Origin: Candidatus Hydrogenedentota bacterium | Lineage (GTDB): Bacteria > UBA8481 > J006 | Direction of reading: 5' to 3' | Assembly: GCA_003697085.1 (NCBI GenBank) | Contig: RFFU01000083.1 | Span: 1 to 15,009 of the forward strand | Length of the DNA stretch: 15,009 nt | Shown: positions 265 to 14,817 of the stretch, in pieces | Layout of the letters: every line of letters starts with the position of its first letter | Numbering within the stretch: position 1 is the stretch's first letter | Translations under genes and position numbers: made by a program | The notes under the pieces: model-generated | Databases searched by the model: none | The model's input: only the letters and a program-made list of their open reading frames with translations | Told to the model about the DNA's origin: nothing

Positions 265-2022
265 CTACCGTCTTCGAATCACGCTGTCCGTCGCCGCGGC
301 GGCTCTGAGCCGAGCCAACCCCAATCGGTACGCGTACGCCGCTTCGGCGCGAGCCACGCGCGCCTTTCGAAGAGAGTCGGCCGCTTCAAGAAGATCAAGG
401 GCCGGAATCGTTCCGGCTTTGAACGAGACCTCCGCCATCCGCAACGCCTCTTCCGCCGCCAAAAGGCTCTTGCTCCGCGCCGTCAACATCCGCGAGGCGG
501 CGTAAAGATCGTAATAGACCTTCCGGACATCGCGGCGGGCATCGAGGATCGCGCGGTCGAGGCGCGCCCGCAAAGCCGCGACATCCGCCTTCCGCGAGGC
601 GACCTTCTTCTCCGCGCGAAATCCGTCGAAGACCGGAACGCTGATGCCGATTCCGATTGTACGATAGGATTCCTCCTCTCCCGTAAAGAAGAGACTGGCC
701 GTTTTGTAGTCGTGCTTCTTGCGACTCCAGGCGATCGAGCCGGTAACGGTGGGATAGAGTTGAGCGCGCTCGAACTTCACCAAGGCCTCCCCCGATTCGA
801 CGTTGAAACGAAGGACAGCCAGATCGGGGCGATTACGGATCGCCAGCGATTCGGCCGTTTCCGCGGGAACCGGTGCCGCGGTCAGTTCGAGTCTTCCTTG
901 GGGGCGGATTCGCATCGAGGGAGGACGCCCCATCACAACGGGCAAAGCCTCCCACGCCGCCGAGAGATTCCCTTCCCTGCGCGCAACGTCCGCTTCCGCT
1001 TCCGCCAGCCGCGACTCGGCCCGCATCACATCCAAGCGTGTTCCCGTTCCAAGCCGGTACCGCGCGCGCGTCGTTTCCAAAAACCGTCGCGCGACTTCGA
1101 GATCATCACGGGCCGCGTGCAGCCGCTCTTCTTCCAACAACGCGTTCAAAAAAGCCGCTTCCACCTCGTAACGAACCCGAATCCGGGCCTCCGCCAGCGC
1201 CGCCTCCGCCGCCGCCGCATCCGCTTTCGAGGCCGCAATCGAATGGGAAATCCTCCCGAACGTCAACAAATTCTGGTCGATTTCGAGCGTGCCGCCGAGC
1301 GAGCTCTCATCGAGACCAAGAACCGACGTCGAGCGGAATGTTTCCAGATCCTGCCACTCACCTGAAGCCGTCACCTGGGGCAGCGCATCCGCGCGCGCCA
1401 CGCCGATCAAAGCCCGTGTCCGAAGATACTCTTCCCGCGCCGCAATGATCTCCGGAGCCGCCTCCAGCGCTTCCGCCACCGCCTCCTCCAGCGTCATCCT
1501 CTCCGGCTCCCGGAATTTCCCTCCCGCTCCCCGGGGCATCAAACGCGTCCAGGATCGCTCCCACGTCTCGGCCGTTTTCCCGCGATCCCGTCGCGCCGCG
1601 CCGGAATCTGCTTCTCCGCGATCATTGTTTTCTTCCTGCTTCTCTTCACCCTTTGGGAATCGTCGGCCTGCCTCCTCGCTTTGTCGCGTGGCTCGAGAAC
1701 GGATTTCTCTTCCATTACCACTTGGAGAATTGCTGGTCTTCGACACCTCCAACGCCTCTGCATTCTCTTCCCCCGGCCCGCACCCCTGTGGCAGAAGCAA
1801 GGTCATCCCCGGAGAGAGACGATACGGAGCCACTATGCCGTTCAACTCGGCAATGTCCGGCCAACGGGATCCACGCCCGCACTCCGCAACCGCAATCCTC
1901 CATAATGTCTCGCCGCTTTTCACCCGATGGGCGGTCGTCGCTGAAACTTCTCCGCACGGGAAAAGTGTTCCTCCCAGGATCAGCGCGGCCGCTCCAAGAA
2001 TCCTTGCCGCCTTTCCGTTCAT
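265..2022 (-). CDS. LysM domain fused to a TolC-family outer-membrane efflux protein
   Basis: The product is predicted at 585 residues. An ATG 45 bases upstream is also open, but the start at 2022 gives a normal signal peptide (about residues 1-28, cleavage after VSA) and has AGGGA 8 bases upstream. Residues 32-79 match a LysM peptidoglycan-binding module (HRVKSGETLWRIA, ending in LSPGMTLLLPQ). Residues 80-170 are a charged, Glu/Arg-rich linker with low sequence complexity. From about 176 to the end is an outer-membrane efflux protein domain, with paired long helical repeats starting at MTLEEAVAEALEAAPEI. TolC proteins are trimeric outer-membrane exit ducts for type I secretion and RND or ABC efflux. 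The LysM part suggests an extra grip on peptidoglycan (inference). No inner-membrane or adaptor gene lies next to it in this window. The channel assignment is strong; the substrate is unknown. Confidence 0.9.
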   Translation of the reverse strand: MNGKAARILGAAALILGGTLFPCGEVSATTAHRVKSGETLWRIAVAECGRGSRWPDIAELNGIVAPYRLSPGMTLLLPQGCGPGEENAEALEVSKTSNSPSGNGREIRSRATRQSEEAGRRFPKGEEKQEENNDRGEADSGAARRDRGKTAETWERSWTRLMPRGAGGKFREPERMTLEEAVAEALEAAPEIIAAREEYLRTRALIGVARADALPQVTASGEWQDLETFRSTSVLGLDESSLGGTLEIDQNLLTFGRISHSIAASKADAAAAEAALAEARIRVRYEVEAAFLNALLEEERLHAARDDLEVARRFLETTRARYRLGTGTRLDVMRAESRLAEAEADVARREGNLSAAWEALPVVMGRPPSMRIRPQGRLELTAAPVPAETAESLAIRNRPDLAVLRFNVESGEALVKFERAQLYPTVTGSIAWSRKKHDYKTASLFFTGEEESYRTIGIGISVPVFDGFRAEKKVASRKADVAALRARLDRAILDARRDVRKVYYDLYAASRMLTARSKSLLAAEEALRMAEVSFKAGTIPALDLLEAADSLRKARVARAEAAYAYRLGLARLRAAAATDSVIRRR

Positions 2023-2237
2023 CCTATCGTCCCTGGTACCCACGCTTCTTCCGGAAAATCCTACCATATCCCTTCACGGTGACCACGCGATTCGCGCTTC
2101 GAAATCCCTCTTTCTTTTTCTGAAATCCGTTCTACCATAAGGATTGATTCGAATCTCCGATTCAGAAGACTCCGAAGCCCGGTTCGATGAAAGACCGTGC
2201 CTCGGCTTCACTAGCGAAAGAGATATGGAAACGCCCC

Positions 2238-5357: not shown

Positions 5358-5999
5358 TTGCCTTCATTGGATCAATCCTATTTCCGGAGCAAAATCCCAA
5401 CGATCGCGCTTCTGCTTTCTTTGACATTCGGATTCCTCGGCATCGAGGCGTGCGGTGGAGGCGGGGAGGGAAAGAAAGAGACGCCGCCGGTGCTGGTCCT
5501 CGCGGATTTCGATTCCGCCCGCCCGCCGGCCAACATCGGGGGGGCCTATTCGGTTTGGATGGTCGATGCCGAGGACACGGCTCAGTGGTGCGCACTTGGA
5601 TATTCCAGCGACTACGCCTCCGGAGGAAAAGGCTACGCTCTCCGGCTCGATTATGACGTCGATGACGTAAAACCGGCCTACAACGGCTTCTGGCTCAAAT
5701 TGCAAAACCTCGACGCTTCCGAGTACGATGCCCTCTCGATGAAACTCGCCGGTGATCCCCGGGGGTGCACGAAAAAGATCATCGTCGAACTTAAGAATCC
5801 CTTTCAGACCGGAAAATACACGGTGGTGGGGATCGACACCTACGTTCGAGAATTCCGCATCCCGCTCGGAAAATTCAAGGGCCTGACGGATTTCCGATCG
5901 CTGACCGAAATGACGATCGTCTTCTCGGACATCGGCGTGACCGCCAAGACCGGAACTCTCTACGTGGATGACATTCGTCTCTTGCGGACGAAAGGCTGA
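5358..5999 (+). CDS. Lipoprotein with CIA30/CBM11-like domain
   Basis: This is a 213-residue protein starting at TTG 5358, chosen because AGGAG (5345-5349) lies 8 bases upstream and the start gives an intact signal sequence. The lipobox GIEAC puts the lipidated Cys at residue 32, followed by a Gly-rich spacer, so the mature protein is membrane-anchored in the periplasm or at the surface. The rest is one beta-sandwich domain of the CIA30/CBM11-like, galactose-binding superfamily: VLADFDS near its start, then KKIIVELKNPF, REFRIPLGKFKGL, and TGTLYVDDIRLL at the end. Such domains bind glycans or stabilise complexes; no catalytic residues are expected. The same domain recurs in the genes at 8089 and 8969. 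It is followed after 5 bases by the hydrolase gene, so the two are almost surely co-transcribed and controlled by operator 1. Confidence 0.87.
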   Translation: MPSLDQSYFRSKIPTIALLLSLTFGFLGIEACGGGGEGKKETPPVLVLADFDSARPPANIGGAYSVWMVDAEDTAQWCALGYSSDYASGGKGYALRLDYDVDDVKPAYNGFWLKLQNLDASEYDALSMKLAGDPRGCTKKIIVELKNPFQTGKYTVVGIDTYVREFRIPLGKFKGLTDFRSLTEMTIVFSDIGVTAKTGTLYVDDIRLLRTKG

Positions 6000-6004
6000 A
6001 AAGC

Positions 6005-7951
6005 GTGCGACGTCGTTCCGTCGTCATCTTCCTCGTGGTATTGCTCCTGGGAATAGGGTTCGCTCTTTGGAAGATGCGTCGAGGCGAGGAATCCGACATC
6101 CGTGAGGTGACGTTGGACCGGATCGAGCAGGCCGCGTTCCTTTATTTCTGGGAGAATGCCGATCCGAGAACCGGCTTGATCCTCGACAACCAGAACAATT
6201 TCCTCGCGAGCGATTTGAGTTATTCTCCCTCTTCCGTCGCGGCGGTTGGATTCGGGCTGAGCGCGATCGTGGTAGGGGTGGAACGCGGTTGGGTCTCTCG
6301 CGCCGACGCCAAGGACCGCGTCCTGACGACACTGAAAACCTTTCGCGATAAATGCGAAAATGTTCATGGATTCTATTATCATTTTCTCGATCCGAAGACG
6401 GCAAAGCGGACCTGGCACTCGGAACTGTCGTCCGTTGATTCCGTTCTCTTTTTGGCGGGGGCCTTGACGGCCGGGAGTTACTTCGGCGGAGAGGTCGAAT
6501 CGCTGGCGAAAAAACTCTACGAACGGGTCGAGTGGCCCTGGATGCTCAACGGCGGCAAGACCTTTGCAATGGGCTGGAAACCCGAGGGCGGATTTCTCTC
6601 GACGCGCTGGGAGCATTACGACGAATCTTCTCTGCTCTATATTCTGGCGATCGGCTCGCCCACGCATCCGATTCCCGCCGAGTCGTGGAAGGCGGTCCGG
6701 CGGGAAATCGGGGAATACAAGGGCCACGTCTGCCTCGTCTCCGGCCCTCTCTTCACGCATCAATACAGCCATCTCTGGATCGATTTTCGCGGGATCACGG
6801 ATGGATTCGCCGATTATTGGAAATCCTCGATCGAGGCGACGAAGGCCAACCGGCAGTTCTGCCTGGACAACGCCTCGTCGTACAAGACCTATGCCGCCGG
6901 CCTGTGGGGATTGACCGCTTGCGATGCTCCCAGCGGGTACCGTGCCTACGGGGCTCCCCCCGGACGGGCCGTTCACGACGGAACCGTCGCTCCGACCGGC
7001 CCCATCGGTTCCTACCAATTCACCCCGGACCTCTCCTGGGAAGCGATCCAGGCTTTTCTTCGGGTCGACGGCCTTTGGGGGCGTTATGGATTCGCTGACG
7101 CCGTCAACCTCGACGTCGTCAATGTTCAAGGAAAGCCCTGGATTTCCACGAACGCGATCGGCATCGACAAAGGGGCTGAAATTCTCTCCATAGAAAACGG
7201 GCGGACGGAACTGATCTGGAAACTCTTCTCCTCACGTGCGGAGGTGAAACGCGGCCTGGAGCGAGCCGGTTTCCGGCAGGGAACCATGGCAATGAAACCG
7301 ACGGTTTCGGAAGCCCCCACGGTCTTCCGAACGAAAGCCGACCGTCCCACGACCACGATTCCGCGGGCGGAGAAATCGCCTTCGATCGATGGGAATCCGG
7401 CGGACCAAGCGTGGGCGAAGGTGTCGCCCCTCTTTCTGGACGAGGTGACGCGGGAGCGCGGCGCCGTATCCGGTCCGAAGGACCTCTCCTCCTCCTTCCG
7501 ATTCCTCTGGGATGAGAAAGCCCTGTACGTCCTTGCCGAGATCACGGACAACGAGATCGTGACGGAGCATGCGGGGAAGGATATCTACCAGGACGATCTC
7601 ATCGAAATTTACATCGATCCTCAGAACAACCTGCTCGATTGGGGGAATTCCCGCGACTTCCAGATCGGCTTCGCCCCGATCGGGGAACGCGGCGAAGCGT
7701 GGGCCTGGTTCCAGAACCGTTCCGGCCGGGAAGCGGAAATCGAATACGTGGTTCTCAAGAAACAAGGGGGATACACCGTGGAAGCAGCGATCCCATGGAC
7801 CTTTCTCGAAACGGTTCCCGAACGGGGAAAGAGGATCGGGTTCTCCTTCGCCGTCCATGACAAGGATACCGATGAAACTCCGGACGCAAAATTTAATTGG
7901 TTTTTCCTTGACCCGGGGATTTATTTGGGTATAGGTTTACTGGGCGGTTGA
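6005..7951 (+). CDS. Membrane-anchored glycoamylase-like hydrolase with CBM9-like C-terminus
   Basis: The 648-residue protein starts at GTG 6005 with AAAGG 9 bases upstream. An N-terminal signal anchor (about 5-23, flanked by RRR and RR) holds it in the inner membrane. Residues about 35-420 form an alpha/alpha-barrel of the glycoamylase-like family (PF10091), with WHSELSSVDSVLFLAG (about 136-151), HQYSHLWIDFRG (about 251-262), and LWGLTACDAPSGYRAYG (about 299-315) as its signatures. That family includes GH144-type beta-1,2-glucanases and parts of cyclic beta-1,2-glucan synthases, so a beta-glucan substrate is likely, though not shown. A linker leads to a CBM9/DOMON-like domain (about 456-648: SPSIDGNPADQAW, then DDLIEIYIDPQNN). 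Its stop codon shares bases with operator 2, and its 3' end contains the promoter for the next gene. It forms an operon with the lipoprotein 5 bases upstream. Confidence 0.88.
   Translation: MRRRSVVIFLVVLLLGIGFALWKMRRGEESDIREVTLDRIEQAAFLYFWENADPRTGLILDNQNNFLASDLSYSPSSVAAVGFGLSAIVVGVERGWVSRADAKDRVLTTLKTFRDKCENVHGFYYHFLDPKTAKRTWHSELSSVDSVLFLAGALTAGSYFGGEVESLAKKLYERVEWPWMLNGGKTFAMGWKPEGGFLSTRWEHYDESSLLYILAIGSPTHPIPAESWKAVRREIGEYKGHVCLVSGPLFTHQYSHLWIDFRGITDGFADYWKSSIEATKANRQFCLDNASSYKTYAAGLWGLTACDAPSGYRAYGAPPGRAVHDGTVAPTGPIGSYQFTPDLSWEAIQAFLRVDGLWGRYGFADAVNLDVVNVQGKPWISTNAIGIDKGAEILSIENGRTELIWKLFSSRAEVKRGLERAGFRQGTMAMKPTVSEAPTVFRTKADRPTTTIPRAEKSPSIDGNPADQAWAKVSPLFLDEVTRERGAVSGPKDLSSSFRFLWDEKALYVLAEITDNEIVTEHAGKDIYQDDLIEIYIDPQNNLLDWGNSRDFQIGFAPIGERGEAWAWFQNRSGREAEIEYVVLKKQGGYTVEAAIPWTFLETVPERGKRIGFSFAVHDKDTDETPDAKFNWFFLDPGIYLGIGLLGG
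7908..7936 (+). promoter_or_regulatory. Promoter inside the 3' end of the hydrolase gene
   Basis: TTGACC (7908-7913) is followed by TATAGG (7930-7935, spacer 16) or ATAGGT (7931-7936, spacer 17). Transcription would start near 7942, giving the next lipoprotein a leader of about 147 bases. The -35 to operator distance is identical to that at 5210. Confidence 0.6.
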
Positions 7952-8024: not shown

Positions 8025-8088
8025 GTGACCGGTGTCGGGTTTCGCTTCGAGAACCCGGAAATGGTGTGTGGAAGGAGGAAGAGGGCTG

Positions 8089-8805
8089 GTGAACGCAATC
8101 GTATCTTCCCGCGTGCGGGAATGGAATTGGACCGTGGTGGCGGCAATGGTTCTGACGGGTATGTTGGTGGGATGCGGAGGGTCGAAGAGCGTGGCTCCCC
8201 CGCCCGCTCCCCCGGCGCCGCCGAAGGTGGAAACGCCCGTCGCCAAGAAACCCGGCACACAAGAAACGAAGGCAACTCCGGCCGACGCCGCGCCATCGGG
8301 AGCAGTGAAAATCCTCTCGGATTTCAACTCCTTCGAGCGCGTCAATACCATCGGAGGAGGATTTGGAGGATGGAATTCGACGGAGCCCCAGCCGGAGGCC
8401 GTCGTCGAGGAGAAGATCGAGGACGGCGTGGGCCCGGATGGAAGTCCCGCTTGGAAGATATCGTACGATATATCGACCCCCGGATCCTTCTGTGGTTCGT
8501 GGATGAAGCTGAACGATTTCGATGCTCGCTCCTATTCCTACCTCGCCTTCGACATCAAGGGCGAGGGCACGTATCCGACCCGAGTCAAGTGCGAACTCAA
8601 AAACGAAAACAACGCGAATGTCGGCCGTACGATGATCACCGGCATTTCCGATCAGTGGCAACGAAAGCGGATTCCGTTGGCGAAATTCAAGCGGGCGCTC
8701 GGAAATCTCAACCATCTTTCGGAATGGGTTCTGGTCATGGACGAGGCCGCGGTCGGAAAGGTGAAGGCGGGGACGATCTTGGTTGATAACGTGGCCTTCG
8801 AGTAA
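8089..8805 (+). CDS. Second CIA30/CBM11-like lipoprotein
   Basis: This is a 238-residue protein from GTG 8089, selected because AAGGAGG (8072-8078) lies 10 bases upstream; starts further up the open frame have no such site. A hydrophobic stretch ends in the lipobox LVGC, with Cys29 as the lipidated residue. A Pro/Ala/Lys-rich linker (about 34-70) then spaces the domain from the membrane. The globular part, from ILSDFNSFERV to ILVDNVAFE, is the same beta-sandwich as in the 5358 gene: an aromatic-rich middle with GSWMKLNDFDARSYSYL, VKCELKNEN, and KRIPLAKFKRAL. The most likely role is binding a glycan at the cell envelope. It has its own promoter and operator 2 and is followed by a third domain copy in the 8969 gene, 163 bases downstream. 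Confidence 0.87.
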   Translation: MNAIVSSRVREWNWTVVAAMVLTGMLVGCGGSKSVAPPPAPPAPPKVETPVAKKPGTQETKATPADAAPSGAVKILSDFNSFERVNTIGGGFGGWNSTEPQPEAVVEEKIEDGVGPDGSPAWKISYDISTPGSFCGSWMKLNDFDARSYSYLAFDIKGEGTYPTRVKCELKNENNANVGRTMITGISDQWQRKRIPLAKFKRALGNLNHLSEWVLVMDEAAVGKVKAGTILVDNVAFE

Positions 8806-8968: not shown

Positions 8969-10573
8969 ATGACACTTCCGGGCGGCAAGAAATTCGCGCC
9001 ACGTGACAAGCGGGCGCGGAGACTCGTGACGATGCAGGTCTCTTTCGGTCTTCGGACCGAGCAGGATACGATCTTCGAAGGGGAATCGACGGGACTTAAC
9101 GAACACGGGCTGGCGGGCCGCGTGAATCTCGTCTCCGGGAGACTCCCCTCGAATCTCGCCGGAAAACGTGTCTCCGTTCGCTTGGACCTTCCCAAGGAGA
9201 CCGGATTCCGGAGGATCGAGGGGGAGGTATTGCGTTTCACGACATCCTGGGTTCCCGGATACCGTTACTTCCTCGCCGTCAAATTCGACCGGATCAGCCG
9301 CGAGGATGTCGAATACCTCAAACGTTTCATCTCTTGGCAGGAGGGGCGGTATTTCGAGGAGGAAAAGCCTCCGAGGCAATGGTACGTTCACCGGACCGTG
9401 GAGAATTCCACCTACGGACCCCTTACCGCCAAGGAAGTGGAATCCGCCGTGCGGGCTGGAGCGTTGACCGAGCAGGACTGGATCTGGTCTCCCTTCGACG
9501 GTGAGTGGATTCCGTTCACGAAGGAAATCCTTTCCGCCGAAGAAGCGATTCCTCTTGCTGTGGAGAGTGCAAGCGGCGGGAGCGGTCTGACGCCGGAAGT
9601 CACGAAAGCGAGCGGCTCGACGGCGGCTGACCAACGGAAGACGACCGACGGGAAAGCCTCCGCCGGAAGGCCGACGGCCTCGAGGCTTCTCGAACGCCGC
9701 CCTCCGTCTTCCGCTGGAAGGTGGCTTCGCGCTTTCACCGTCTCAGTCCTTCTCCTCTTCGCCGCCCTCGGCGCGGGAATCGCTTATTGGACCGGTTGGC
9801 TCGATCCGTCGGAACCCGCTCAAGAATATCGCCGGGCCCTTGAATCCCACGACTCCGGCCGTTACTACCTCGGCATCCGTTTCATGGACGACCTCTGCCG
9901 CCGCTTTCCCAAGAACCGTTTCGCCCGCCGGGATCTGTTGACCCGCTATCTAGCCGAATCGGAGTCCCTCATCGACCGATCAATCGCCAATACGATGTTC
10001 GAGGAACCCAAGCGCGACAACATCGGCGTTCCTCCGCCCGATCGTTTCGTTCTCTGCGATTTCAACCGCGACGGCTATACCGCGCGCGAAATCGCGCCGC
10101 CGATCTTCGCTTGGAAGAGCGATCCTTTCGACAAGGAAACCCGCATCGACATTGAATACGATCCCTCGGACAAAATCGGTTCCGCCGGATATTCACTCAA
10201 GATCGATTACCATCTCCGAAGGGAGCCCGGTATCTACGCCGGACTCTGGGTTCGTTTCCGCGGGCCTGATCGACCGTCCCTCGATCTCTCCGACTATTCC
10301 TACCTTCTCTTCCGGATCAAGGGAGACGGAAAGGCGCGCGGTTACACGCGGTCGCTTCAGGTGGAACTGCGTAACGAAAGAGAGATCGGCATTGTTACCG
10401 TCAACAACATTCCGAACGAGTGGACACAAGTAAAGATTCCCTTTGCTCACTTCAAGGGTATCACGCAGTGGGATCGGCTTCGTTCCCTCCTTTTCGTCCT
10501 GGATTCCAGCCGCGTGACGGATCGGGACGGTGTCTTGCTTATCGACGAAATAGCCGCGGTAAAGGCACGATAA
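8969..10573 (+). CDS. PilZ-like/GYF_2/transmembrane/CIA30 multidomain protein
   Basis: The 534-residue protein starts at ATG 8969, a few bases after GGGAGAG. Residues about 12-122 look like a PilZ domain: an Arg-rich start (RDKRARR, 12-18), TGLNEHGLAG (41-50) at the position of the usual DxSxxG motif, then beta strands ending in FLAVKFDRIS. Key c-di-GMP contacts are altered (Gly42 and Asn44 instead of Asp and Ser), so binding is doubtful. Residues 137-183 (WYVHRTVENSTYGPLTAKEV, then DWIWSPFDGEW) fit a GYF_2 module. A disordered linker (about 190-250) leads to one membrane helix (about 254-274). Outside come a short helical region (about 285-345, possibly TPR-like) and a CIA30/CBM11-like domain (about 358-534), with LQVELRNEREIG, VKIPFAHFKGI and GVLLIDEI. 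The topology suggests a link between a periplasmic glycan or protein partner and a cytoplasmic signal. It is probably co-expressed with the 8089 gene, though the 163-base gap could hide a promoter. Confidence 0.83.
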   Translation: MTLPGGKKFAPRDKRARRLVTMQVSFGLRTEQDTIFEGESTGLNEHGLAGRVNLVSGRLPSNLAGKRVSVRLDLPKETGFRRIEGEVLRFTTSWVPGYRYFLAVKFDRISREDVEYLKRFISWQEGRYFEEEKPPRQWYVHRTVENSTYGPLTAKEVESAVRAGALTEQDWIWSPFDGEWIPFTKEILSAEEAIPLAVESASGGSGLTPEVTKASGSTAADQRKTTDGKASAGRPTASRLLERRPPSSAGRWLRAFTVSVLLLFAALGAGIAYWTGWLDPSEPAQEYRRALESHDSGRYYLGIRFMDDLCRRFPKNRFARRDLLTRYLAESESLIDRSIANTMFEEPKRDNIGVPPPDRFVLCDFNRDGYTAREIAPPIFAWKSDPFDKETRIDIEYDPSDKIGSAGYSLKIDYHLRREPGIYAGLWVRFRGPDRPSLDLSDYSYLLFRIKGDGKARGYTRSLQVELRNEREIGIVTVNNIPNEWTQVKIPFAHFKGITQWDRLRSLLFVLDSSRVTDRDGVLLIDEIAAVKAR

Positions 10574-10911
10574 CGACAGGAATAGCTCTTTCGTTCGCCC
10601 TTCTTCGTTTTTCACTTTCCGAGGTAGAACGGCACGTTGGTAACCGTCAACGGTAAGGAGAGAAGCCTCGTCCTTGCCCTGTTTCTTGCCCCCAACCCTG
10701 CCTTCTTCCTTTTCCCCTTTCCCTTTTGCCTTTCTCATTTTCCGTGTTCTCCGTGTGCTCCGTGATTTCTTCTCTTCCGTGTCATTCCGTGTCTTCCGTG
10801 GTTTCTTCTCTTCCGTGCTATTCCGTGTCTTCCTCGGGGTATTCCGTGGACTTTTCGGACGCGTTGTTCTATCGTTGTTTGGAGTGGTTTCACCAAGGAG
10901 TTCAAGAGCCG
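10574..10911. other. Intergenic repeat block A
   Basis: This 338-base gap has no convincing gene. It contains a small inverted repeat (ACCGT 10643-10647, ACGGT 10650-10654), a pyrimidine-rich stretch (about 10674-10740) including CCTTTTGCCTT and TTTCTCATTTT, and then a run of CCGTG-centred repeats to about 10850. The open frame that runs through it into the DNA methyltransferase is repeat-derived and compositionally unlike protein (Ser/Val/Phe/Cys repeats). Confidence 0.75.
10766..10833. repeat. Two 32-bp direct repeats, period 36
   Basis: The segment at 10766-10797 is repeated at 10802-10833 with only two differences (TC versus CT in the middle). Both begin TTTCTTCTCTTCCGTG and end CCGTGTCTTCC. 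Shorter CCGTG units precede it from 10741. This is the most regular part of repeat block A. Confidence 0.85.
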
Positions 10912-11949
10912 ATGAACCAGATCGTCTTCGCTGATAATCTCGCCTTCCTCACGACCCTTCCGGAGGGCTCGGTCAACCTCGTCTACATCGATCCTCCGTT
11001 CAATACCGGCAAGACCCGGCGTTACCGTCGGCTCGAAACGCGGCGTTCCGGAAAAGCGGGGAATCGCATCGGCTTTCTTGGAAAGTCCTATGCCACGACG
11101 GAACGAAGTGTCACAACCTATTCCGACATTCACTCCGATTATCTCGGCTCGCTCGAACCGCGCCTCCGGGAGGCTCACCGGGTTCTGGCGGAGGACGGCT
11201 CCCTTTTCTTCCACATCGATTATCGGGAGGCCCACTACTGCAAGATTCTTCTCGACGAAATCTTCGGGCGTGAATCCTTCATGAACGAGATCATCTGGGC
11301 GTATGACTACGGCGCGCGGAGTCGAAAACGCTGGTCGCCAAAGCATGACACGATCTTCTGGTATGCCAAATCCCCGGTCCGCTATACCTTCAACTTCGAG
11401 GAGATGGATCGGATTCCGTATATGGCCCCCGGATTGGTCACGCCCGAAAAGAGAAAACGCGGAAAGACGCCGACCGACGTCTGGTGGCACACCATCGTCC
11501 CGACGAACGGAAAGGAACGCACCGGATACGCGACACAGAAACCGCTGGGAATCCTCAAACGGATCGTCAAGGTTCATTCGCGGCCGGAAGAGACTGTCCT
11601 CGACTTCTACGCGGGAAGCGGTACGACGGGAGAAGCGGCGGCTCGTCTGGGACGGCGTTTCATCCTCGTCGATAACAATCCGCAGGCGATCGAGGTTATG
11701 TGTCACCGCTTGCGCTTTGCTTCGCCGGTTCTCGTGAACCTTCATAATCGACCGGTCGGAAAAGAAAAGGGCAATCTTCCCCTCTTTCGGGAATGGAACC
11801 AGAGTCTTCCTCCTTTTCCGCCCCCAAACGCGGCAAATTCCGCGTCCCCCCCTAAAACCGCGAGTACCAGGAAGAAACGGAAGTCTCCCTCGGTGACGCG
11901 GAGAAAAGAATCCGAAAATCGGGAAGTTCGGGAAGAACGCGATGCCTGA
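10912..11949 (+). CDS. Beta-class DNA adenine-N6 methyltransferase, apparently orphan
   Basis: This is a 345-residue protein from ATG 10912, with AAGGAG (10895-10900) 11 bases upstream; upstream in-frame sequence is repeat and is excluded. YIDPPFNTG (25-33) is catalytic motif IV, and DPPF points to adenine-N6 methylation. FYAGSGTTGEAA (232-243) is the SAM-binding motif I. The order IV before I defines the beta class, as in type III Mod subunits and many solitary methylases. A basic insert (about 34-60) and the central GYATQKP (205-211), a conserved part of the fold, are visible. The C-terminal 55 residues are Pro/Ser then Lys/Arg-rich and look disordered. No restriction enzyme lies nearby, so it is probably a solitary epigenetic methylase or a remnant of a system. 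It overlaps the solute-binding gene by 8 bases. Recognition site unknown. Confidence 0.88.
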   Translation: MNQIVFADNLAFLTTLPEGSVNLVYIDPPFNTGKTRRYRRLETRRSGKAGNRIGFLGKSYATTERSVTTYSDIHSDYLGSLEPRLREAHRVLAEDGSLFFHIDYREAHYCKILLDEIFGRESFMNEIIWAYDYGARSRKRWSPKHDTIFWYAKSPVRYTFNFEEMDRIPYMAPGLVTPEKRKRGKTPTDVWWHTIVPTNGKERTGYATQKPLGILKRIVKVHSRPEETVLDFYAGSGTTGEAAARLGRRFILVDNNPQAIEVMCHRLRFASPVLVNLHNRPVGKEKGNLPLFREWNQSLPPFPPPNAANSASPPKTASTRKKRKSPSVTRRKESENREVREERDA

Positions 11950-13228
11950 GGAACCCGAAACAACGGGCGCTTCCGGCCGCAATCCCCTCTTGCTTCTTCT
12001 CCTCCTCTATTCCGCGCTTGTGACGGCCGCCCTCGTCGCCCTTCTGCCCTACTATCTCGATGTCACAAGGGAAAATCGTTCCTTTTCCTCTTCTCCGCCC
12101 GTCACTTACCCGGAACCACTTATCATCTGGCTTTACGGAACGGAGTCTGAAATGGTGCACACGATTCTCCCCTTCTTTCAGCGGGCGTACCGTCAGTATG
12201 AGGTTCGCGTCGTTCCGAAGACGTGGAGTTCTCCGGCCGCAGTCGATCTCGTTGCGTTGCCTCCCGATCTCTGGCCGGACCTGATTCAAATCGGCTCAAC
12301 CTGGCTTCCCGAACTCGCGGACAAGGACCTCATCCTTCCCTTGGATCCCTATCTCTCCCACTCCTTCATCGAAGCGAGCGACTTCGCGAAGAATTCCTGG
12401 TCCTTGTATCGGTATCGCAATCATCAGTACGCCATTCCCTGGTACATCGACGTTCGCGCCTTATACTACCGTTCGGATCTGCTTCCTTCCCCGCCGAAAA
12501 CCTGGAACGAAGTGCTCCGACTCCGACGGACGCGCTCGCGAAAATATCGCTACCCGCTCACGTTTGCTTTGGACGACCCCAAAAATTTCCTGATGCTCTA
12601 CTGGGCGGCGGGCGGGACGCTCTCCCGACCGGATCCCTTGGTGCTGAAGAAATCCCTGAAACGGTACAAACAACTTCTTCTGTCTCGCATCGTTCCCAGC
12701 GGTCCCTTCGAGAACACGCGCGATCCGGAAGCGGTTCTGGCCTCGGGGTACTGTGCCGCAATGATATCGGGGCCGTGGCATCTGAGAGCATTGGAGCGGG
12801 AATTCCCACAGGTATCGGATTCCTGGGCAACGGCTCCGTTGCCGGCCGATTCGACGACCGTTTCGTTCCTGGGAGGTGCGGGTTGGGCGATTCCGAAGCA
12901 TGCGAAGAATCCCGAGGGGGCCTGGACGTTCATCGAGTATATGACCCATGTGGAACGGCAGAAGGAATGGTGGCGGGCCGTCGGAAACCTACCGGCCGTT
13001 CAGGCTGCTTGGGATTCGTCGATCGAGACGAATCCCCATCTGGCCGGTTTCGCCGCAATGCTTTCCCATCTTCGCCATCCTCCGGTCGATCCACGCTGGA
13101 ACGAGACGGAGCGGGAATGGAAAAACATTCTCGACGACTACACCTCGGGCAAAATCACTCTCACGCGCGCCAGGACGGAGATGCTTCGCTCCTTGAAATG
13201 GCTCCGGTCGAATAACTCGAACCTCTGA
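11942..13228 (+). CDS. Membrane-tethered sugar-type ABC solute-binding protein
   Basis: This is a 428-residue protein starting inside the methyltransferase gene at ATG 11942. A cytoplasmic tail of about 13 residues is followed by one hydrophobic segment (about 14-40, Leu-rich) with no lipobox, so it is held by an uncleaved helix instead of a lipid. The rest has the family 1 extracellular solute-binding fold: PLIIWLYGTESEM at the first strand, DLIQIGSTWLPELADKDLILPLDPY, the hinge motif YAIPWYIDVRALYYRSDLL, GYCAAMISGPWHL, and FLGGAGWAIPKHAKNPEGAWTFIEY. Relatives bind oligosaccharides or sugars for ABC importers. No permease or ATPase is present in this window, so it may work with distant transporters or act as a sensor. 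The neighbouring LacI-type regulator would suit a sugar substrate, but no operator was seen before this gene. Confidence 0.88.
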   Translation: MPEEPETTGASGRNPLLLLLLLYSALVTAALVALLPYYLDVTRENRSFSSSPPVTYPEPLIIWLYGTESEMVHTILPFFQRAYRQYEVRVVPKTWSSPAAVDLVALPPDLWPDLIQIGSTWLPELADKDLILPLDPYLSHSFIEASDFAKNSWSLYRYRNHQYAIPWYIDVRALYYRSDLLPSPPKTWNEVLRLRRTRSRKYRYPLTFALDDPKNFLMLYWAAGGTLSRPDPLVLKKSLKRYKQLLLSRIVPSGPFENTRDPEAVLASGYCAAMISGPWHLRALEREFPQVSDSWATAPLPADSTTVSFLGGAGWAIPKHAKNPEGAWTFIEYMTHVERQKEWWRAVGNLPAVQAAWDSSIETNPHLAGFAAMLSHLRHPPVDPRWNETEREWKNILDDYTSGKITLTRARTEMLRSLKWLRSNNSNL

Positions 13229-13779: not shown

Positions 13780-14817
13780 ATGAAATCGGTTTCACGTTCA
13801 AAGAGAGCCACCATTTATGATGTCGCCGCTGCGGCGCGTGTCTCGACCGCGACTGTTTCGAGATACCTGCGCGGGTACGATCGGATCACAGCGGAAAAGA
13901 AAAAGCGGATTCAGCAGGCCATTGCGGCACTCGATTTCGAACCTCATCCGATCGCACGCTCCTTGGCTCTTCCCATCAAACGAACCCTCGGTCTTCTGAT
14001 TATGCGAGGGTCCCGCGCTTATGCCGACCTTTTTCTGGCCGAAATCCTCTCGGGCGTGACCCGAGCCGCTTCCGCACTCGAACTCTCCTTGATGATCTCC
14101 GTTCCTTCCGCTTCGTCCGAGATCCCTTCCGTAGTGGAACGGATCCGCCGTGTCGTCGATGGAAGCCTCCTCCTCGATGTCTCTCTCGGCGATCAGACCG
14201 TGCGGAAATTGGCGGCCGGCGGCCACCCGATTCTTCTGGTCAATCAGGTCCATTCCAGAATTCCCTCCGTCTCGATAGACAATTATCTCGGAGGGAAGAC
14301 GGCCGCCGAGTATCTCGTGAAACTGGGTCATACGAGGATCGCCTGTTTGGCCGGAGACACGTCCATCAGCCGGCAGCGCCTCGATGGTTACCTTTCCGGC
14401 CTCGCCGAGGGGGGACTGAGGCCGGCGGAAGTAGTCGGCTGTGCCTTCGACAGGGAGAAGGCCCGCCGGGCTTTTCGAAAGATCATCAAACGCCGAAAAC
14501 CTCCGACCGCATTGCTCGTCGCCAGTGACTGGATGGCGGTGGGAGTCCTGGAAGAAGCCCGCGCGCTCGGCGTCGAAATCCCCCGCGACCTCAGCGTGAT
14601 TGGTTTCGATGACGCCATCATCGCAGAGACAACGGTCCCGGCGCTGACGACCATCCGCCAACCGCTGGAACGCCTGGGAGCCGAGGCGGTCGAAACACTC
14701 TGGGGATTCGTGACGAAAACAGAAAAAACGCCGGGATCCTCGAGAAAACGATTCAGCGAAAAATCTCTGGCTCCGAAACTGGTCGTTCGACAATCGACCG
14801 CACCGCCACAGTTGTAA
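13780..14817 (+). CDS. LacI/GalR-family transcriptional repressor
   Basis: The 345-residue protein has the full family layout. The helix-turn-helix is at residues 10-31 (TIYDVAAAARVSTATVSRYL), the usual N-terminal position, which supports the ATG at 13780. The hinge helix (PIARSLA, 57-63) has a Leu at the place that wedges into the central CpG of operators. Then comes a periplasmic-binding-protein-like sensor domain with GHPILLVNQV, a YLVKLGHTRIACLAGD strand, and DLSVIGFDDAIIAE near the C-terminus. It should bind a sugar or sugar phosphate and repress sugar-use genes. A site resembling the operators at 5251 and 7949 lies across its own start codon, implying autoregulation. It is separated from the other genes by repeat blocks, but it is the only regulator visible and the natural candidate for those sites. 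Inducer unknown. Confidence 0.93.
   Translation: MKSVSRSKRATIYDVAAAARVSTATVSRYLRGYDRITAEKKKRIQQAIAALDFEPHPIARSLALPIKRTLGLLIMRGSRAYADLFLAEILSGVTRAASALELSLMISVPSASSEIPSVVERIRRVVDGSLLLDVSLGDQTVRKLAAGGHPILLVNQVHSRIPSVSIDNYLGGKTAAEYLVKLGHTRIACLAGDTSISRQRLDGYLSGLAEGGLRPAEVVGCAFDREKARRAFRKIIKRRKPPTALLVASDWMAVGVLEEARALGVEIPRDLSVIGFDDAIIAETTVPALTTIRQPLERLGAEAVETLWGFVTKTEKTPGSSRKRFSEKSLAPKLVVRQSTAPPQL
13781..13794. promoter_or_regulatory. LacI-type operator 3, across the regulator's start codon
   Basis: TGAAATCGGTTTCA has matching TGAAA and TTTCA arms and a central CpG. Read in the same sense, it differs from TGAAACCGGTTACA (operator 2) at two positions. It begins with the TG of the ATG and lies about 2-15 bases after the expected transcription start, a position suited to autorepression. 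Confidence 0.65.

Follow-up and report, generated by a model that had tools for sequence, protein, structure and literature searches.

A gene in the 15,009-nucleotide stretch of Candidatus Hydrogenedentota DNA analysed here (the window) encodes a protein in which a PilZ-like barrel, a GYF_2 domain, a membrane helix, a TPR-like remnant and a CIA30 domain of the CBM11 type follow one another on a single chain. This PilZ-like/GYF_2/TM/CIA30 combination is real and conserved, and is apparently previously undescribed. We propose, with a probability of about 0.45, that the protein is an Alg44-like scaffold or switch, oriented with its N terminus inside and its C terminus outside, that couples cytoplasmic contacts to periplasmic glycan assembly or processing, with the PilZ-like domain being mainly protein-binding. 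The gene is laid out as follows.

8969..10573, forward strand: the entire gene (PilZ-like / GYF_2 / TM helix / TPR-like remnant / CIA30 of CBM11 type), an intact open reading frame of 534 residues, assigned from Pfam, AlphaFold, a paralogue and relatives
9002..9358, forward strand: PilZ-like barrel, residues ~12–130, in which K14-R15..R18 LVTM and TGLNEHG replace RxxxR and D/NxSxxG
9371..9541, forward strand: GYF_2 domain, residues ~135–191, with W138 Y139, G150 P151 and W180
9731..9787, forward strand: core of the single TM helix, residues 255–273; the model helix spans 248–274
9809..9994, forward strand: TPR-like helical segment, residues ~281–342, with homology to the first part of the TPR region of relatives from a second genome (G001)
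10028..10570, forward strand: CIA30 / CBM11-type jelly roll, residues ~354–534, predicted to be periplasmic

In Pfam, the window protein passes the threshold for CIA30 alone (26.7 bits; cut-off 24); GYF_2 (21.7 bits; cut-off 25.8) and PilZ (19.5 bits; cut-off 22.5) are marginal. The genome also encodes, on a different contig, a paralogue (L021:8243-9769; 508 residues, 38% overall identity) that has the identical domain order and exceeds both of these cut-offs, scoring 29.4 bits for PilZ and 31.6 bits for GYF_2, and a relative in G001 reaches 24.4 bits for PilZ, again over the 22.5 cut-off. Since the paralogue, of the same order, passes both thresholds, the doubt raised by the low scores of the window protein is removed, and profile searches do find the PilZ and GYF_2 domains named in the initial annotation. 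The GYF signature W-Y...GP...W (W138, Y139, G150, P151 and W180) is invariant across the aligned family. TPR-like helices lie between the membrane helix and CIA30, and the match to one relative (L008) spans residues 14–343. The possibility that the fusion is a frameshift or misassembly artefact was rejected, as the paralogue has the same order on a separate contig.

An AlphaFold model of the window protein was built with 16 related sequences. Its pLDDT exceeds 90 in the greater part of three regions: the PilZ-like barrel, the helix within the membrane and the jelly roll beyond it. A separate model of residues 8–194 agrees with the full-length one. The linkers at residues 192–244 and 338–352 are of very low confidence and the pTM is 0.45; the relative placement of the domains is therefore not predicted. 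A PDB sequence search with the full-length protein returned no match and a PilZ-GYF2 profile gave chance matches only, so fold comparison was used instead. Residues 12–130 resemble PilZ structures, with MotI (5vx6) at Z 13.8 and the Alg44 PilZ domain (4rt1) at Z 11.1; the PilZ domains of MapZ and YcgR also matched. The GYF segment aligns with GYF structures at Z 5.0–6.4 (GIGYF1, 7ruq, Z 6.4; Smy2, 3fma, Z 6.1). For the outer domain (residues 355–534), CBM11 (1v0a) has the highest score, Z 17.2, with CBM30 and other carbohydrate-binding modules close behind, and CIA30/NDUFAF1 structures score Z 16.4–16.7; in Foldseek, the first matches are NDUFAF1 chains. Each domain in the order originally claimed is supported by AlphaFold and PDB comparison, structure prediction having recovered the PilZ, GYF and CBM11 folds.

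The claim of a single membrane helix also stands. One hydrophobic segment is present, directly after an arginine-rich stretch, RRPPSSAGRWLR, and a comparable hydrophobic helix occurs in all four family members. The positive-inside rule predicts that the N terminus is cytoplasmic and that the CIA30 domain is periplasmic.

The PilZ-GYF2 pair was found in just two genomes, the source genome (G000) and G001, among about 386 covered by profile search. In pattern scans of 84,980 species, which overlook distant forms, the sole source of the pair was the G001 MAG, apparently Candidatus Hydrogenedentes bacterium CG07_land_8_20_14_0_80_42_17. The whole window protein had no match as a single-sequence query against genome contigs, a profile scan recovering the G001 MAG only, and no match in plasmid and phage collections. 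PilZ was present in one of 30 GYF_2 proteins scanned, namely the paralogue; this set, biased to high-scoring GYF_2, comprised the paralogue and 29 high-scoring matches from a 372-genome search, and most of the others were SPFH/Band-7 or zinc-ribbon proteins. The source genome (3.2 Mb) has 15 GYF_2 matches, the most among the genomes listed. Among the papers searched, none was found to describe PilZ joined to a GYF or GYF_2 domain, the single match for PilZ with DUF4339 being a Xanthomonas genome paper, and a search for the order PilZ/GYF_2/TM/CIA30 found no described protein, in keeping with the initial view that the arrangement was not a recognised one.

Gene order in G001 suggests how the chain may have arisen. 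Its two PilZ-GYF2-TM proteins carry C-terminal TPR repeats instead of CIA30. At one locus (L023) the order is MurJ-type flippase, glycosyltransferase, glucoamylase-CBM9, CIA30 lipoprotein, PilZ-GYF2-TM-TPR and TM-CIA30, the last two genes overlapping by 4 bases. The window has the corresponding order, glucoamylase-CBM9, CIA30 lipoprotein and PilZ-GYF2-TM-(short TPR-like)-CIA30. As L023 has the same neighbourhood in split form, the window protein appears to be a fusion of two neighbouring genes. The simplest account is that PilZ-GYF2-TM-TPR fused with TM-CIA30 and most of the TPRs were lost, or else that a split took place in the opposite direction. By BLAST the window CIA30 domain is nearest to the L023 TM-CIA30 protein (E 1e-44) and the paralogue (4e-40); support in the CIA30 domain tree is too weak to prove orthology. 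At the other locus (L024), PilZ-GYF2-TM-TPR and a CIA30 lipoprotein are followed, in the same orientation, by Wza-like, Wzc-like and FecR-like genes. Elsewhere in G001 a CIA30 lipoprotein is fused to a PF10091 glucoamylase (L025:141-2273). As only two genomes carry the family, the conserved context rests on few loci.

Three companion genes precede the target in the window.

5358..5999, forward strand: CIA30-like lipoprotein without a Pfam match, its homology recognised by alignment
6005..7951, forward strand: N-terminally anchored glucoamylase (PF10091, GH144-like) with CBM9, an orthologous neighbour being present in G001
8032..8805, forward strand: CIA30/CBM11 lipoprotein (CBM_11, 28.1 bits; cut-off 27), whose start codon may be further downstream

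The two free lipoproteins were correctly described as having the same outer domain: they are 29–30% identical to it (E 1.7e-21 for 5358–5999 and 4e-16 for 8032–8805) and have lipobox-like N termini. The best PDB relatives of the enzyme between them include the endo-beta-1,2-glucanase 5gzh, and in a solved beta-1,2-glucanase (5z06) the N-terminal domain shares the CIA30/CBM fold (Z 13.3). In a profile alignment with CtCBM11, the consensus aromatic residue before 'nGlW' aligns to the tyrosine of the DGYWG stretch, which we take to be a ligand contact. It is plausible that the outer domain binds a glycan, judging from its predicted fold (CBM11, Z 17.2) and its neighbours; a beta-glucan as the ligand is a guess.

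Several other features of the window were noted. At 265–2067 (reverse strand) a TolC-family outer-membrane protein and an N-terminal LysM form one open reading frame, an unusual fusion (LysM at residues 47–93, TolC-like part from about residue 190). Imperfect tandem TTCCGTG-type repeats (10740–10833; 36-base period, 89% match) lie at the start of an N6/N4 DNA methylase reading frame (10726–11949), whose true start is probably further downstream; similar repeat-rich text is found upstream of parA in L021 (6706–7035). A solute-binding protein (11942–13228), which has an N-terminal anchor to the membrane in place of a lipobox, is followed by a LacI-family regulator (13780–14817), and no ABC permease is encoded within the window. 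There is no Rfam match in the window, and promoter- or terminator-like sequences are not in excess in the region.

The PilZ-like domain departs from both c-di-GMP motifs. In place of RxxxR the window protein reads K14-R15-A-R17-R18 (KRARR). Of the four family members, three have lysine or glutamine at position 1 of the motif (lysine in the window protein, glutamine in two relatives), and the paralogue alone has the motif intact. The second motif, [D/N]x[S/A]xxG, reads GLNEHG, and all nine aligned PilZ-like domains have GxNExG here, with G and N replacing D/N and S/A. The other eight PilZ domains of the same genome all have RxxxR and [D/N]x[S/A/G]xxG in canonical or near-canonical form. Because the window protein has lost both motifs and these eight domains keep them, canonical c-di-GMP binding appears unlikely from the sequence. 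A profile of the GxNExG group matched one canonical PilZ domain of the genome weakly (probability 20%, profile to single sequence), so sequence alone does not join the two. PilZ proteins that act via protein contacts without c-di-GMP exist (PMC11800159). We infer that the window PilZ-like domain, too, works mainly via protein contacts and not as a canonical c-di-GMP receptor.

The GxNExG type extends beyond this family. In distant genomes, L057:1435-2217(-), L059:913-1854(+) and L060:1432-2202(-) encode an N-terminal receiver and a C-terminal GxNExG PilZ-like domain; in L057, Pfam confirms Response_reg and its PilZ model misses the PilZ-like part. L056:1321-1860(+) and L058:1318-1881(+), outside the four-member family, combine GxNExG with a retained RxxxR (RRRPSR) and lie directly downstream of an acetyltransferase-like gene; L056 has no PilZ match in Pfam. 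The subfamily, which also follows receiver domains, makes it possible to test whether some PilZ folds have given up c-di-GMP.

If the protein is an Alg44-like scaffold or switch, its PilZ-like barrel and GYF domain would bind partner proteins inside the cell as the input, the GYF partner probably being a proline-rich segment. One helix would cross the inner membrane to a short TPR-like neck, and the CIA30/CBM11-type head would dock nascent or processed polysaccharide, or else the anchored GH144-like enzyme and the neighbouring CIA30 lipoproteins. We favour signalling from the inside out. The window encodes neither a polysaccharide synthase nor proteins for export or chain length, and the genes that do lie nearby, for a solute-binding protein, a LacI regulator and a GH2-like protein, would fit glycan use equally well. 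It is conceivable, if unlikely, that a c-di-GMP-independent GxNExG barrel and GYF are allosterically tied via one helix to the glycan head, with free lipoprotein heads presenting or competing for the glycan, which would constitute a new trans-membrane switch.

Other readings differ in what the cytoplasmic part senses and what the head binds. The initial annotation envisaged a glycan signal passed inward or a c-di-GMP state passed outward; analogy makes communication across the membrane a reasonable idea, but the loss of both motifs weakens the c-di-GMP part. A true receptor of the Alg44 type, in which residual arginines and a variant loop bind c-di-GMP and the state is passed to the periplasmic head, would suit the nearness of the fold to the Alg44 PilZ domain (4rt1, Z 11.1), the 17 GGDEF matches in the same genome and the intact RxxxR of the L021 paralogue and L056/L058. 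We nevertheless consider it unlikely, given the substituted second motif in nine of nine aligned domains, the lysine or glutamine for the first arginine in three of four family members and the canonical motifs of all eight other PilZ domains.

Signalling could also run from the outside in, the CIA30 head binding an oligosaccharide product of the GH144-like enzyme and PilZ-like/GYF releasing or recruiting a partner in the cytoplasm that governs glycan use. The anchored solute-binding protein, LacI regulator and GH2-like protein nearby would fit such a sensor, as would a G001 locus (L026) where a CBM11-type lipoprotein adjoins GH94, GH35 and a MalK-type ATPase. The window protein has no output domain (kinase, cyclase or HTH), however, and both G001 PilZ-GYF2 loci adjoin flippase, glycosyltransferase, Wza-like or Wzc-like genes, making this reading distinctly unlikely. 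The CIA30 fold in NDUFAF1 serves pure protein docking. Were the outer domain to do the same and bind no glycan, the protein would be an envelope assembly factor, as might be read from CIA30 being its sole Pfam domain over cut-off and from the NDUFAF1 chains that top the Foldseek list. This is less probable still: the best structural Z is to CBM11 with other carbohydrate-binding modules near, the sister lipoproteins exceed the CBM_11 cut-off, and the domain is found fused to and adjacent to glycoside hydrolases.

The protein shows the plan of exopolysaccharide regulators, PilZ / TM / periplasmic module, carried out with different parts, apparently joined when genes fused, in a lineage about which little is known. 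Related parts occur in known systems. The outer-domain fold is common to CtCBM11 (1v0a, Z 17.2) and CIA30/NDUFAF1 (7zkp, Z 16.4) at an identity of only about 14–18%, and the GH144-type beta-1,2-glucanases 5gzh and 5z06, kin of the neighbouring enzyme, cleave glucan and are without PilZ or GYF. GltJ (AgmX) of Myxococcus xanthus is an inner-membrane protein switch with a cytoplasmic GYF domain, a membrane helix and a periplasmic part. It differs in that a zinc ribbon takes the place of PilZ and its periplasmic end is TonB-like, and it acts in gliding motility, not on glycans; its GYF structure (7z3c) matches that of the window protein weakly (Z 4.0).

Alg44, the alginate co-polymerase and regulator of Pseudomonas aeruginosa, likewise joins a cytoplasmic N-terminal PilZ domain through a membrane anchor to a periplasmic C-terminal part and is linked to a polysaccharide. 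Alg44 is not known to carry a GYF domain. Its C-terminal part is of the membrane-fusion type and it is encoded beside an Alg8-type synthase, whereas the window protein has CIA30/CBM11 and no synthase gene in the window. Alg44 has canonical motifs (R17, R21, D44 and S46) and requires c-di-GMP (PMC12564702). Known exopolysaccharide systems combine a c-di-GMP/PilZ regulator with a TPR scaffold, a carbohydrate-binding module and an enzyme that cleaves the polymer, and contacts such as Alg44–AlgK and Alg44–AlgX occur among them (PMC9734138). The BcsA–BcsB and AlgK–AlgX modules of synthase-dependent systems share PilZ, TPR, a carbohydrate-binding module and a glycoside hydrolase or lyase with the genes described here. 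There, the parts are separate proteins that work with a synthase; here, with no adjacent synthase, PilZ-like, GYF and TPR lie on one chain, and the CIA30 head is either fused to it or encoded next door.
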